A DNA stretch of 64,000 nucleotides. Source: Sulfurihydrogenibium sp. YO3AOP1 (GTDB lineage: Bacteria > Aquificota > Aquificia > Aquificales > Hydrogenothermaceae). A model generated the notes under the pieces. That model saw nothing but the letters and a program-made list of their open reading frames with translations, searched no databases and was not told the origin of the DNA. This document shows, in pieces, positions 1 through 58,930 of the stretch (the first letter of the stretch is position 1; the number at the start of each line of letters is the position of its first letter). The stretch spans positions 827,501 through 891,500 of the forward strand of contig NC_010730.1 of NCBI RefSeq assembly GCF_000020325.1, read 5' to 3'. A program made the translations under genes and the position numbers.

Positions 1-1
1 A

Positions 2-622
2 GGACAGTATTTTATTGAAAAAATCAAAGATGAAATACAGTGCTACATAGCAGATGCTACAGGTTTTGCCTATGGAGATATTTATAGCCTTAAATGGAGA
101 AGAGGGATAGAGGTAAAACAGATAAAATCCCATATAAGACTTGAGGTTATTATGGCAGTAGATAACGAAGATAAAGTGGTAATTTTGGGATGTGAAACAG
201 GTAAAGCCTATGCAAGTGAGATAAAGATGTTAAATCAGATATTAGACAAAGTAGATTTTATCAAAGGACTACCTTTTATAGCTGATAAAGGTTATGATTC
301 AATAAGTGTAATACAAAAAATCTTAGACATTGGACTTATTCCTGCTATAAAGATAAAGGAAACATTTAGAATAAAAATAAAGCATCCATTGAGACAGTTA
401 TCAAAGGAAAATTGGTTAAAGTATGGAAAGAAAAGATATAGAATAGAATCTTTATTTGGTAATATAAAGAACAAAGCAAATTCAGTGTTTAGAGTTAAAA
501 GAGAAGATATAGCTAAGAAGTTAGCTATTGCTTGGGCTATTCTTTGGAATTTCTACATGATTTTAATTTATGTATTTTTGTTTATCCTATCAGTCTTAAT
601 TTTTAGAAGAAGTTTTTTTTGA
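2..622 (+). CDS. DDE transposase, C-terminal part (5' end outside window)
   Basis: The reading frame is open from the first bases of the window, well upstream of the first ATG at 152, so this is the C-terminal part of a longer transposase. Visible motifs are a first catalytic Asp region (ADATGFAYGD, bases about 47-76), a second Asp in FIADKGYDS (about 277-303) and a Glu in RYRIESLFGNIKNKAN (about 436-483), the DDE pattern of IS4/IS5-type elements. A hydrophobic tail follows. The frame looks intact within the window. The exact IS family and right terminus are not resolved; the element probably ends between 625 and 660. Function as a transposase is confident, activity is unknown. Confidence 0.8.
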   Translation, partial: GQYFIEKIKDEIQCYIADATGFAYGDIYSLKWRRGIEVKQIKSHIRLEVIMAVDNEDKVVILGCETGKAYASEIKMLNQILDKVDFIKGLPFIADKGYDSISVIQKILDIGLIPAIKIKETFRIKIKHPLRQLSKENWLKYGKKRYRIESLFGNIKNKANSVFRVKREDIAKKLAIAWAILWNFYMILIYVFLFILSVLIFRRSFF

Positions 623-680
623 TTTTTGGAACAGGGCTCAGGGGATATAAGTGGTACCTTAAAATTTATATAACTTTCAA

Positions 681-9470: not shown

Positions 9471-9585
9471 CTTTGCTCCGTTTTAAGAGGTATTTATAAA
9501 AAGTTTATTTTATCATAGGTTAGATAATAGAGTGTATAGTCTTAGTCCTTGATTTTATTTACACATTAGTATTTACACATTAGTT

Positions 9586-9864
9586 GAGAGTGCTTTAAAA
9601 TTTTAACCAAGTCTAAAATTAATTAACCTTTCGATGTCATTCTCCAGTCCTTCGAAGAATCTCCGTCTTTATGACTCTAAAGCGTCATTCTGAGGGTAAG
9701 CGAAGAATCTCCGCCCTTTCTTGCCCATTACCTCTCACTTATTCACTTACTCACCTTTTTTAAGAGAGAAGATCCTTCGGACATACGTCCTCAGGATGAC
9801 GAGCAAAGGTAAAGTTATATTTACATATACATTCTACAACTTACAAAAATTTTAGAACAGCCTC
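9586..9864. repeat. Family A repeat element with terminal inverted repeats (three arms)
   Basis: The 474-bp gap 9471-9944 holds no gene. The element starts with GAGAGTGCTTTAAAATTTT and ends with the inverse CTTACAAAAATTTTAGAACA. Inside are three hairpin arms: 9636-9666, 9684-9712 (GTCATTCTGAGGGTAAGCGA...) and, inverted, 9766-9800 (ending CCTCAGGATGAC). ACATTAGT occurs just outside each end (9577-9584 and 9867-9874), as expected of a target-site duplication; a further ACATTAGT lies farther left, which weakens that reading. Confidence 0.7.
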
Positions 9865-9944
9865 ATACATTAGTCTGAAGAATCTTAGTTTTTTTGATAA
9901 AATAAAAAAATTGGTTAAACTGTCAAACAATAGGAGTTTTATAA

Positions 9945-11812: not shown

Positions 11813-11822
11813 TATAAATATT

Positions 11823-11993
11823 GAGAGTGTTCCAAATTTTAACTAAGTTTAAAAATTAAGTCGTCATTCTGAGCGTAAGCGAAGAATCTCCTGTTTTTCT
11901 TTTCAATTCAAAAAATCAAAAGAGGAGATCCTTCGGACGAAAGTCCTTAGGATGACAAGAAAAGGCAAACTTACAAAAATTTTAGAACACTCT
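11823..11993. repeat. Compact family A element with terminal inverted repeats and flanking duplication
   Basis: The clearest unit in the window, 171 bp. Left end GAGAGTGTTCCAAATTTT, right end the inverse AAAATTTTAGAACACTCT. Arm 1 at 11863-11891 (GTCATTCTGAGCGTAAGCGA...) and inverted arm 2 at 11924-11956 (GGAGATCCTTCGGACGAAAG...) flank a 30-bp AT-rich spacer, so the whole unit can fold into one long hairpin. TATAAAT lies on both sides (11813-11819 and 11994-12000), a candidate target-site duplication. The 309-bp gap 11778-12086 otherwise holds only the start of the ctpA leader. Confidence 0.75.
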
Positions 11994-12086
11994 TTATAAA
12001 TGCTTAATATCTTAACCTTTTACTCTTACTTCTCACCTTTCTATGATATACTAAAATTTAATGAAAATTTTAATAAAGGAGCAAAG

Positions 12087-14505: not shown

Positions 14506-14713
14506 TGAGGGTGCTGCAAAAAATTTTTGATAAAGATATTATCTTGCCTGTCATTCTGCAGCCGGCGAAGAATCTCCGTTCTTTTACCTCTCACTTACTC
14601 ACTTTCTTTAAAATGAGGAGATCCTTCGGACTAAAGTCTTCAAGATGACGAGCAAAGGTAAAGTTATATTTACATATACATTTTACAGCTTACAAAAATT
14701 TTAGAACACTCTT
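14506..14713. repeat. Family A element between tsaD and pheA
   Basis: In the 399-bp gap 14395-14793. Left end TGAGGGTGCTGCAAAAAATT, right end AAAATTTTAGAACACTCTT. The left arm at 14549-14578 is the GCAGCCGGCGAAGAATCTCC variant; the inverted right arm is at 14615-14648 (GGAGATCCTTCGGACTAAAG...). The tail TAAAGTTATATTTACATATACA is shared with the element at 9586-9864. No gene is seen in the rest of the gap. Confidence 0.7.
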
Positions 14714-28438: not shown

Positions 28439-28664
28439 ATTATTAGCTTACCTATGAGGGATTGAAACAAATCATTATAGACTTCAATCTTAGCTGGCTC
28501 TTTATGTTATTAGCCTACCTATGAGGAATTGATATATCTTCAAAAAGTATCCTATTCTGTCCATTATGGTTTGTAGCCTACCTATGAGGAATTAAACAAA
28601 TCGTCCATCTTAAACTCGCCCAAAAATCCTGCCAGTTATTAGCCTACCTATGAGGAATTGAAAA
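28439..28664. CRISPR. Short decayed CRISPR array, four repeats
   Basis: Four copies of a 30-bp repeat with core AGCCTACCTATGAGGAATTG, located at 28439-28468, 28506-28535, 28569-28597 and 28635-28664. Spacers between them are 37, 33 and 37 bp and unrelated in sequence. The first copy ends in the usual GAAAC, the others carry substitutions (GATAT, a 1-bp deletion with TAAAC, GAAAA), so the array is degenerate. No cas gene is present anywhere in the window. The rest of the 875-bp gap 28041-28915 holds a promoter-like leader, an ACGTGA repeat run (28322-28351) and AT-rich sequence with no gene seen. Confidence 0.85.
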
Positions 28665-40894: not shown

Positions 40895-42872
40895 AATCTT
40901 TCTTGAAGTAGCTGTTCCTGTACCACTTTACCAAACTTTTTGGTACAGGTTTCAAACTGAGTCCTTAGAAAATTTTGTAGGCAGAAGAGTAATTGTTTCA
41001 TTTAAGAGTACTAAATCCTATGGATTAGTCATTGGAATATCTAATTCTATCAAAAACGTTCCGGCAGAATATAGAAGCAAACTAAAAGATATCATAAAAA
41101 TCGATGATTTTCAAGTATTTACAGAAAAAGAAATAAACATCATTAAAAAAATTTCAGATTATTATCTATCTCCGATAGGTTTGACGATAGATTTTTTCAT
41201 TCCAAATATCTTAAGAGAAAAAGCCATAAAAGACCCGCTTGCTTTTAAAGTTTTTAACATTAATGAAAATGTAGAGCTTAAAAAAATCTCAGAAACAGCT
41301 AAAAAAATTATTCAAATCATTCAAGAAAATCAGGAAGTATCTTATGAAGATTTATTATCACTTGGATTTTCTAAAAAAAGTATTAAGAGTTTGCTTGATA
41401 AAGGTATTCTTATTCCTGTTGAAAGTAGTATAAAAATAAAAACTCCTGTCTTTAGACAGCCAAAAACGGCTGACTATACTCCAAAACTATTAGAAAGTCA
41501 GATGTATGTTTATGATAGATTTTATTTCAAAAATAGGTTAAAAGCTTACACATCGCTTATAAAAAAATATGTTAAAACAAATAAAAGTGTGTTGATTGTC
41601 GTTCCAAGCATTGCCTTTGGAAATATACTTTATAAAGATTTATCTCAAAAGTTTGAAAATGTATATTTTTATCATGATGGAATTAGTCCAAAGCTTCAGT
41701 TTGAAATTTTTAAAGAGATAACAAATAATCCATCTATTGTGATCGGAACAGTATCTTCTTTGCTTATTCCTATAAAAGACTTAAATCTCTTAATTCTTGA
41801 GCAAGAACATTCATCAGCTTACAAAGTTTTAAGGTCTCCAAGATTTGAGACAAAAAGGGTTTTATATTACATTCATAAAGAAAAAAATATTCCAATCATC
41901 TTAGCATCTTCTATCTTATCCATCGAAAGCTACTTGATTAATGCTACAAATCTAAAAAAAGATAAAGATGTTATAAAATCTTATGTAGAAATCAATCCTT
42001 TTAAGTCTATCAATAAAACTTTAAATAAACTCCAAAGCTTGATTTCAAAGAAAGGAAGAACTCTGATTTTAACTAATAAAAGCTATTACTCCGGGTTCAT
42101 TTACTGTCCAAGATGTGGATGGGAAGCAGTTTGTCCAACCTGTGATGTTCCGCTAAAAACTTACATTCAAAATAACACTAAAATTTTCAGATGTCCATCT
42201 TGTAAAAAAAGGTTTGAATACTTTAAAACCTGTCCTGAATGTGATTTTAAGCTAAAGGAGACTGGATTTGGAAAAGAGTTTGTTTTTGAATTTCTTAAAA
42301 AAAGTGATAAACTTAGAAAGCTACTGGATTCTAATAAAATCATTGTAGAATCAAGTTTAAAGGATATATTGCAGTTTGAAAGCTTTGATATGGTTATAAA
42401 TCTTTATCCTGATTTTATTTTAGATTTACCTGATTATAGGTCAAATGAAAAATTTTTAAGGTCTGTAATATCTCCGTTAACAGTAGCTAAGGATAATTAT
42501 ATCATTTTTTCTAATACACTGGAGAGTTGGCTTGCGGAAAACATTGGAGCTAAATCCTTGGATGTAAATCAAATTTTAGAAAATTTTTATAAAAAAGAAA
42601 CTATCTATAGAAAGAAAAACAAGCTACCACCGTTTTTAAAGCTTGTAAGATTTAAAATTGTGTTTAAACCAACTCAAAAAGAGTATGTTGAAAAGGTATT
42701 GAGAGAAATCTCAAGCTTGAAAGTATATTCTTTCTCTCAAAAATCAAATAGTTTTAATTATTATTTTGAGTATAAATCAGAAAAAGAAAAGGAAATGATA
42801 AAGGTTTTAGCTGAAAAACTGTTAAAAAAGGGTGTGGATGTAATTATAGAAGTCGACCCTAAGAGTTTTTAA
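40887..42872 (+). CDS. priA: PriA-like primosomal protein N' with degenerate ATPase motifs
   Basis: 661 residues with the PriA outline: N-terminal DNA-binding domain ([15 protein letters not shown]), winged-helix-like region (about 110-190), helicase lobes, and an intact zinc site of four CxxC pairs ([13 protein letters not shown] and [17 protein letters not shown]). However Walker A is absent: the GVTGSGKTEVY region is replaced by [15 protein letters not shown] (about 207-221). The DEEH box reads EQEH (about 302), and the QVAGRAGR motif VI is replaced by [11 protein letters not shown]. It is probably a helicase-inactive restart scaffold. Start TTG 40887 overlaps hslV by 8 bp; the reading frame is intact. 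Confidence 0.88.
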
Positions 42873-42912
42873 TACCTTGGGTGGGAAATTAGTGGTTTTT
42901 ATAAAATTTAAA

Positions 42913-43022
42913 AAGGAGAAGCTTCGGATTTAGGTCCTCAGGATAACGGTCAAAGGTTGGTTGATAAATATCTGAGAAAGGGTAACCTCATTTGTCATTC
43001 TGCAGCCGGCGAAGAATCTCCT
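42913..43022. repeat. Family A arms after priA
   Basis: An inverted, decayed large arm at 42913-42946 (GGAGAAGCTTCGGATTTAGG...) and a small arm at 42993-43022 of the CAGCCGGCGAAGAATCTCC type. They lie in the 233-bp gap before the transporter operon. Terminal inverted repeats are not recognisable here. Confidence 0.6.
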
Positions 43023-43105
43023 ACTTTTGTTGAATTTTTCACCTGACGTATATTATTTATATATACTAATAAAATATAGCATCTTCCTAAAACAGAGGTT
43101 AATTT

Positions 43106-52287: not shown

Positions 52288-52359
52288 AGTAAATATTATA
52301 TAACAGGTTAAGATATGCTTTGGGGGGAGAAATTAGCGATTTTTATAAAATTTAGACAA

Positions 52360-52749
52360 GGAGATCTTTCGGATTAAAGACCTTAGGCGGATGACAAAGA
52401 AACTAAAAGAGGCAATTCATGAATTGCCCGTACAGAAAAAGGTGAGAAAGTTAGAAGTGAAAAGTTATTTTTGTCATTTCTGAAGCCGGCAAAAAATCTG
52501 ATATTTTTACTGAATTTCTCACCCGACTTGACTGTTTAAACATAAACATAATAAACAATAACAACTCAAGTTGCCATCCGTAATCCTTGTTATAATGGCA
52601 AACGTAGGTATAGACCAAAAAACAAGCTTATATATTTAAGACTTAAGAATTAACATAAGATGTGAAACATGAAATTCTTATAAATTTGGGGGAAATACAC
52701 AGGTTTAGTCCTACAATTAAATCATTTATGGGCTATTCATGAATCGCTC
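52360..52749. repeat. Decayed family A arms and two family B palindromes
   Basis: The 540-bp gap 52288-52827 has no gene that I can support. Family A arms: 52360-52396 (inverted, with a 3-bp insertion in its end) and 52472-52500 (AAGCCGGCAAAAAATCTG). Family B: 52411-52428 (GGCAATTCATGAATTGCC) and 52730-52749 (GGGCTATTCATGAATCGCTC, one arm mutated). A weak ACGTGA-like run lies near 52650-52675. Confidence 0.6.
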
Positions 52750-56555: not shown

Positions 56556-56561
56556 GGGTGA

Positions 56562-56602
56562 GAGTGTTTCAAAATTTTTGCGAATTTACCTTTCCTTGTC
56601 AT
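56562..56602. repeat. Left end of a family A element, interrupted
   Basis: GAGAGTGTTTCAAAATTTTT at about 56564 followed by a CCTTTCCTTGTCATC segment is the usual terminal repeat and outer boundary of a family A arm. The expected CTGAGG continuation is missing, replaced by the inverted-repeat-bounded insertion that starts here. Confidence 0.65.
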
Positions 56603-56771
56603 CGTATATTAAATATACCAAAAATTTTTAAACTATAAGAGAATAAGATTTTATAATAATTATAGACATGGGAGAAAAAAGGAAGGACAGATCAAGTCAC
56701 TGTCATTGGTCTTTTAAGACCAATCAGGATGTTTTAGACCGTCCTTCCTCTACTTCCTAAAACCTGAATCA
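56598..56771. repeat. Left inverted repeat of the nest, with internal hairpin
   Basis: Contains a 68-nt hairpin (56681-56748): outer stem GGAAGGAC/GTCCTTCC and an inner stem-loop ATTGGTCTTTTAAGACCAAT (56705-56724). Matches 59006-59180 in inverse. Confidence 0.85.
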
Positions 56772-57297: not shown

Positions 57298-58534
57298 ATG
57301 GATAAGAAAGAATACTTTGAAAAAATATTAGACAGATCTACCGAAGAATTAGTAAAAGAACTTTTCCCAAACGGTATAACAACTCAAGAAAAGATAGGTA
57401 TAAGAAAACTTTTAGAATCTGTTGTGGAACTGATTATGAACCAAGAAAGAAATTTCTTCTTGAAAATGACGATGATAACAAAGCAAACGGGTATTATGAA
57501 AGAAGCCTAAATACTGGTTCTTTCAAGCTTAACATAAATGTTCCAAGAGATAGAAAGGGTAAATTTAGACCACAAATATTACCTGACCCTTACAAAAGAG
57601 TTGATGAAGATTATATAGACCTTCTTATGAGTTTGGTATCCAATGGATACTCAGAAAGCAAGATAGATTCTACATTAAAAAGCTTGGGCTTAAACTACTC
57701 AAAACAACATATGGATGCAATCAAAAAACAGCTTATAGAAAGACTTGAGTGGCTTTAAAACAAGAGAGCTTCCATCGGATGCATTTGTACTGTATATAGA
57801 TGCATACCACTGTGATATAAAAGAGAAAAACAAAATCAGAAAAGCTTCTGTCTATGTAGTTCTTGGAATAGATTTACAAGGAAATAAAGATATATTTGGA
57901 TTTTACACATTTTTCAGTAGTGAAAACAAAGCAGACTGGATAAAAGTATTCAATGATTTAATAGATAGAGGACTAAAAAGGATAATGCTTATAGTAAGTG
58001 ATGATTTTCCTGGAATATCAAAAGCCATAGAAACACTGTTTCCTTATACAGACCATCAGCTATGTTTAGTCCATTTACAAAGAAACGTTAGAAATCAGAT
58101 GGATAAAGAAGATTCACAAGTATTTAACAAAGAATTAAAAAACATAAAAGAAAACAGCTTAGATTATGAAGATGGATTAGAAAAATTAGATGATTTATGT
58201 AGTAGATTTAAATCTAAATATCCAAGCTTTATAAAACATATTCAATCTAACAAAGAGAGATACTTATGTTTTTTAAAAATATCCAGAAAATCTAAGAAAA
58301 CACATATACACAACAAATCCAGTTGAAAGTGTTAATAGCATGATAGAGAAGGTAAGAATAAATTTAGGTGGATATTTTCAATCTGTAGACATTCTTGAGA
58401 TAAATCTGCTTATACAGAGAGATAATTTAAAGAATGGAAAATGGAAAAAACCTATACCTGCTTTTAAAGGATCTTCTTATGAAATTTTGCAATTGTTTAA
58501 TAAAAAGTTTTCAATCCAGACACAAAATTATTGA
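57298..58534 (+). pseudogene. IS256-family (mutator-type) transposase with three frameshifts
   Basis: About 410 codons in total, the usual family length, but read in successive frames. Segment 1, 57298 to about 57458 (KEYFEKILDRSTEELVKELF); segment 2, 57459 to about 57740 (ENDDDNKANGYYERSLNTGS); segment 3, 57745 to about 58295 (ELPSDAFVLYIDAYHCDIKE and the second Asp in IMLIVSDDFPGI, then FPYTDHQLCLVHLQRNVRNQ); segment 4, to 58534 (TTNPVESVNSMIEKVRINLG with the catalytic Glu). The start has AAGGAGG. Each shift is 1-2 nt. It is dead unless these are sequencing errors. Confidence 0.88.
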
Positions 58535-58930
58535 TAAGTCTCCATAGGTTAACGATTCTCTTTTGTTTCTTAGCATTGTAAGCTGCTGTTGTAGGTCTTC
58601 CAATATCTTTAGTTTTACTTCTATTTCTTTTTCTACATCTGATTTTGGTTTATAAAGCTCTCCATCGAAAAACGTTCTTCCATATTCTGCAATAAAGAAT
58701 GAATCAGCTTTATCTGTTTTTACTCCCGCATGTTCCATTATGATAAGCATATATGACTTTTTAAACTTCTTAAGGTAAGGCTTTATTTTCATTTCAAACT
58801 CAACTGGGTCTGATTTAACTTCAAAATTTTCTTTCTTGTTATCATATAAAACTGTAGCAGTGAATGAGTTTTTAGATACATCAATTCCTATGACTATTTT
58901 GTAGCCATTCATAAGAATACCTCCTTTCAT
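58535..58930 (-). pseudogene. IS110-family transposase, N-terminal fragment with internal deletion
   Basis: The minus-strand frame starts MNGYKIVIGIDVSKNSFTAT, the RuvC-like DEDD start of IS110 enzymes, and contains MEHAGVKTDKADSFFIAEYG. In intact members the MEHxG and KTDKADS parts are separated by some 40 residues, so an in-frame deletion is inferred at about 58720. The frame ends after the coiled-coil beginning (LKILEDLQQQLTMLRNKRES) and runs into the end of the IS256-like gene at about 58535; the C-terminal Ser-active domain is lost. The start is ATG 58912 with AGGAGG, or ATG 58930 further upstream. Confidence 0.82.

Follow-up and report, generated by a model that had tools for sequence, protein, structure and literature searches.

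The unit described here lies in the genome of Sulfurihydrogenibium sp. YO3AOP1 (G000; 1,838,442 bp, single contig), from which a stretch of 64,000 nucleotides (G000:C1:827501-891500), hereafter the window, was analysed. Positions 11823-11994 of the window hold a unit of 172 bp with terminal inverted repeats GAGAGTGTTCYAAAATTTT, and elements of this type are referred to below as family 1. The features of the locus, and those related to it in the window, are the following:

1-639, plus strand: 3' part of an ISAae1-like insertion sequence (IS), with a transposase frame at 2-622 (PF01609) and the right terminal repeat GATTTTTGGAACAGGGCTC at 621-639; the remainder lies left of the window
9585-9864: second family 1 MITE, 280 bp, with duplications at 9575-9584 and 9865-9874 that match at 9/10 positions
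11813-11822, no strand assigned: left target duplication TATAAATATT, 8/10 in register with the right copy
11823-11994, no strand assigned: family 1 MITE, with terminal inverted repeats and a 10-bp flanking repeat
11863-11892, plus strand: left REP-like palindrome CGTCATTCTGAGCGTAAGCGAAGAATCTCC, tag outward, assigned, like its partner below, from sequence; the 27-mer of one arm is exact in many phyla
11924-11957, minus strand: right REP-like palindrome TGTCATCC...GGATCTCC, tag outward; the whole unit folds, with a z of -6.5
11995-12004, no strand assigned: right target duplication TATAAATGCT, in register with the left copy
14508-14712: probable third family 1 unit, degraded, with an exact right end, six mismatches in the left end and no duplication
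56560-56620, plus strand: family 1 left end and start of the hairpin unit, recognized by motif match and interrupted by an IS110-family element

The right end of the unit is exact, the complement of 11976-11993 reading AGAGTGTTCTAAAATTTT, and the left end, from 11824, reads AGAGTGTTCCAAATTTT, which is the end motif minus one A. The inverted ends of a complete unit, as given in the original prediction, are therefore present, with a left end one base shorter than quoted and a length of 172 bp instead of 171. Allowing up to three mismatches, the end motif matched 13 times in the window, whereas 100 shuffles averaged 0.77 matches and never exceeded 4; allowing up to two, the genome contains 77 matches, and the reversed control yields 7. 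These comparisons exclude chance as the origin of the motif. No ORF of at least 80 aa was found inside 11823-11994, and no Rfam family covers the unit.

The motif TATAAAT had been noticed outside both ends, and it is found there, at 11813-11819 and 11995-12001. It is the start of a longer repeat in register, TATAAATATT/TATAAATGCT, which matches at 8/10 positions and represents a degraded 10-bp target duplication with two differences. The second unit (9585-9864) presents an in-register duplication, ACACATTAGT/ATACATTAGT, matching at 9/10 positions, and one further copy of ACATTAGT lies to the left of this unit, at 9563. The duplication thus measures 10 bp, and not the 7-8 bp first supposed.

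The stretches around 80 clusters of end matches gave 34 inward-facing end pairs, 28 of them distinct. At least nine of the ten flank bases match in nine of the 28 distinct pairs, whereas left flanks set against wrong right flanks give an expectation of 0.25, and the observed mean flank match was reached in none of 300 shuffles, which agrees with the earlier view that the flank duplications are hard to explain by chance. Exact 10-bp duplications are represented, for example, by ATTTTATAGT (1633403), TACATTCACT (1014024) and CTATCTCCAC (902857). An exact 7-mer flank repeat is present in 8/34 pairs, the chance being about 0.8% per element as estimated from mismatched flank pairs. A clear duplication is absent in 19 of the 28 pairs, most duplications having decayed. 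Hairpins picked irrespective of their ends (n=20) provided two more exact 10-mers, TCCAATTATT and AAATTCTAAC, and a family 1 end pair was present in only two of the 20.

Empty sites were searched by joining the flanks over one duplication and querying two congeners. In G002, the sites of the elements at 1344795 and 315285 are uninterrupted (88% and 89% identity) and keep a single target copy each, not both, in agreement with a transposition origin. A third locus, the site of the element at 42045 in G005, is ambiguous: it is without the unit and carries short tandem AAATCT copies. No clean empty site for the unit at 11823 was found in G002, where this locus is rearranged. In G001, G004 and G006 the two genes that neighbour the unit are adjacent and the unit is absent, which indicates that the arrangement of the source genome at this locus is ancestral. 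In G005 a rearrangement has split the unit, its left half having this left flank and its right half this right flank, each of them now joined to different sequence.

The two halves in G005 are on different contigs and have other partners, so copies of the element do recombine. This favours a reading in which the TATAAAT flanks at 11823 are coincidental and the unit arose by recombination between two copies, not by one insertion that left a duplication of its own; the match of only 8/10 and the AT-richness of the flanks point the same way. On the other hand, the ancestral gene order and the register of the repeat, which obeys the 10-bp rule of the family, argue against it, and we consider it unlikely. 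A single insertion with its own, now degraded, duplication is the reading retained for the unit at 11823. It was also observed that several units have left and right flanks on different contigs or beside other units in congeners (L175 and L176 in G005; L323-L325, L329 and L330 in G002); these units therefore mark rearrangement breakpoints between close genomes.

It had been stated that the window holds no transposase with these ends. The transposase frame at 2-622, with the right terminal repeat at 621-639, corrects this statement, and the proposed search for an autonomous element with the same termini identified the ISAae1-like IS both there and in a second copy (L122), the PF01609 transposase having two copies in the genome. 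The second copy is frameshifted and lies beside a MITE, in the order TAAAACCTAT - IS - TAAAACCTAT - MITE - TAAAACCTAT, with one target repeat common to the IS and the adjoining MITE. The termini of this copy, AAGCCTGTTCCAAAATTATT and GAGACTGTTCCAAAAATC, agree with those of the MITEs. An intact driver was not visible in the genome, since L122 is frameshifted and the copy in the window was read over its 3' part alone.

The end type and the duplication length of the IS are settled by homologues in other genomes. Nine of the 12 inspected copies of the G122 homologue were recovered, and each has an exact flanking repeat, which measures 10 bp in five copies and 9-12 bp in four; this homologue has as a rule 980 bp and the ends GAGAGTGTTTGAAAAATC and GAGGGTGTTTGAAAATTGCC. 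The G087 homologue, with one copy of 934 bp, presents the ends GAGGCTGTTC and GAGGCTGTTT and the flanking repeat GCGAAACAGT. In both genomes, full-length homologues thus combine GAG ends with exact flanking repeats close to 10 bp in length. Against the NCBIfam model IS5_2, the G122 protein scores above the threshold (204.8 bits, cut-off 140); the transposase fragment in the window scores 49.9 bits over part of this model, under the same cut-off.

Two other explanations bear on this assignment. The multi-copy IS256-family elements of the genome are numerous (37 PF00872 matches) and might have moved the unit, but their ends, GAGACTTGTCAATAATTTTGTGTC and GGGAGTTAAAATAATGTTGTGTC, differ from those of the MITE, and the repeats seen next to these elements fall short of 10 bp, which makes their involvement scarcely credible. 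Alternatively, no transposition would have occurred, and chance inverted repeats would surround hairpins spread by recombination, as might be expected from the many hairpins without family 1 ends. This leaves unexplained the 10-bp duplications, the empty sites and the insertion, beside a MITE, of an IS whose ends agree with those of the MITE, and it is extremely improbable.

Of the seven genomes of the genus that were compared, G000, G002 and G005 have the transposase, the ends and the hairpin arm together, and the other four have none of them; G006 has zero matches to the ends and to the hairpin arm. In a hybrid unit of G005 (L145 996-1363, G005:C68), the left half of a MITE, with one palindrome, continues into the 3' end of the gene for the ISAae1-like transposase. 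The duplications, the two empty sites, the matching IS and the co-occurrence in three genomes uphold the idea that a non-autonomous, hairpin-carrying element was transposed.

We propose, with a probability of about nine in ten, that the unit is a MITE with ISAae1-like IS5-family ends and a core not derived from the IS, presumably mobilised in trans by the IS transposase. The DDE transposase of the IS would bind ends of the GAG(A/G)(G/C)TGTTC(C/T)AAAA type in trans and would move the unit; insertion would take place at staggered cuts 10 bp apart, with gap repair producing the 10-bp target duplication, and the palindromes would be carried along with the unit. Dozens of such units occur in this Sulfurihydrogenibium genome, and the one at 11823 is by mechanism an ordinary MITE; its core is less ordinary.

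Inside the unit, two REP-like palindromes stand head to head, with their tags outward. The 27-mer GTCATTCTGAGCGAAGCGAAGAATCTC of the common arm is exact in many phyla among the matches listed, and Sulfurihydrogenibium yellowstonense SS-5 (L289, L301) carries the same hairpin arm. The same palindromes also fill a second family of terminal inverted repeats in this genome. Because of this filling and the occurrence of the 27-mer in many phyla, the palindromes are regarded as not IS-derived, which bears on the earlier alternative between hairpins as cargo and hairpins as the element's own core.

Alternatively, the palindromes could be REPs mobilised by a tyrosine transposase of the RAYT type, which would make the inverted repeats outside them incidental. 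The arms do look like REPs in dimers (PMC3733652), and G000 has one Y1_Tnp gene. A Y1_Tnp match is, however, absent in G002 and G005, where the hairpin arms equal or outnumber those of G000, and a RAYT would leave unexplained why the 10-bp duplications keep register with the outer ends; we regard such a movement as very improbable. For family 1, the counts of duplications already tell against it.

Many hairpins lie in units of the second family instead, which have about 170 bp, the ends ACSTYGGGTGAGAAATT (94 end matches, control 0) and the same palindromes with the tags inward. Copies are found in the window at 42874-43049 and 52323-52524, and at L334, L340, L342, L345, L347, L348 and L352-L381. 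Direct repeats of at least 12 bp, unusually long, variable in length and reaching 22 bp, are present in 6/18, with 0.08 expected. One end pair of this family encloses a gene for a transposase of 241 aa, with a flanking repeat of about 24 bp:

L354 679-1517 (G000:C1 about 348801-349639): IS982-like transposase gene, between second-family ends

The 241-aa transposase is weakly IS982-like (34.8 bits, cut-off 130), and IS982-like elements with repeats of about 24 bp seem unusual. The two families thus share the core, and each has an IS partner of matching ends, but they differ in ends, transposase and tag direction, and the direct repeats of the second reach 22-24 bp against 10 bp in family 1. In G002, some 20 contig ends fall inside the final 35 codons of an IS982-like transposase (for example C5, C20, C28, C33, C34, C38, C41 and C43), which suggests many near-identical copies in that genome.

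Other mobile elements were seen at or near these palindromes. An IS110-family element was apparently inserted repeatedly inside palindrome arms, with the junctions GTCAT or CTCAGGATG (window 56600-56700; L032 601-900; L347, L349, L351), and seems to target the palindrome repeat. In the element that interrupts the family 1 copy at 56560, an IS110 domain is encoded in 58511-58930, and an IS256-family element with a broken frame, at 57300-58400 of the window, is nested in this IS110-family element. A long element apparently bounded by MITE ends, at 1398611-1401513, was rejected: this stretch consists of an IS110-family gene that IS256 interrupts, and a hairpin unit lies next to it. The window also presents two matches to the CRISPR direct-repeat family RF01315, on the minus strand at 28439-28664.

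A pilot search in other phyla, with a score of at least 12 as the threshold for outer inverted repeats, found 9/119 palindromes inside inverted repeats, with different ends, where 0.7 were expected. Different perfect or near-perfect inverted repeats around the palindrome, such as GGGCATAAGCGCTAACTTA, were observed in other phyla at L286, L225, L229 and L304.

We infer, tentatively and at odds well below even, that a REP-type palindrome without a transposase of its own spreads through repeated capture by unrelated DDE insertion sequences, which take it up between their ends, with at least two captures here (ISAae1-like and IS982-like) and others, within other inverted repeats, in other phyla. 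The core would then be a repeatedly captured passenger. CGTC-tagged REP palindromes were reported without a dedicated transposase (Di Nocera et al. 2013, PMC3733652). That study did not settle how they spread and suggested that they might be mobilised by many transposases (PMC3733652). The units described here offer one concrete route for the spread of CGTC-type REPs, in which REP-like palindromes serve as the core of MITEs belonging to one ordinary insertion sequence and probably to a second, and the matching ends and target duplications make the 2013 suggestion (PMC3733652) directly testable. Among the papers of the library searched, none prints the palindrome or names ISAae1.

Among known elements, the closest comparison for the ends is ISAae1 of Aquifex aeolicus, which is annotated as IS5-like. 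Its transposase is homologous (ISAae1 and the G087 homologue share 32% identity), and its ends, AAGCCCGTTTAAAAAATC and GAGCCTGTTGAAAAAATC, resemble those of the family 1 MITE. The flanking repeats of ISAae1 have 9 bp, against 10 bp for the MITE, which, unlike ISAae1, has no gene. As for the bacterial MITEs Nezha, RUP and NEMIS (PMC3733652), the units are short and non-coding, have terminal inverted repeats, target duplications and many copies, and coexist with a resident IS of matching ends. The family 1 interior, however, consists of a palindrome dimer, the palindrome being present in many phyla, and not of an IS remnant as in MITEs of the Nezha, RUP and NEMIS type.

The core resembles the CGTC REPs in form, with an incomplete fit. 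In relation to the description in PMC3733652, both arms have a CGTC or TGTC tag and a stem beginning with AT, and they form dimers with the tags outward; occurrence in distant phyla is likewise common to the core palindrome and the CGTC REPs. The stem of the left arm is interrupted, with 5 + 2 bp around mismatches against the 8-9 bp of the described CGTC REPs, and the tail is CTCC instead of CCA-like (PMC3733652). Aquificota is absent from the phyla given for CGTC REPs in PMC3733652, and the palindromes described here, unlike those REPs, are enclosed by IS ends.
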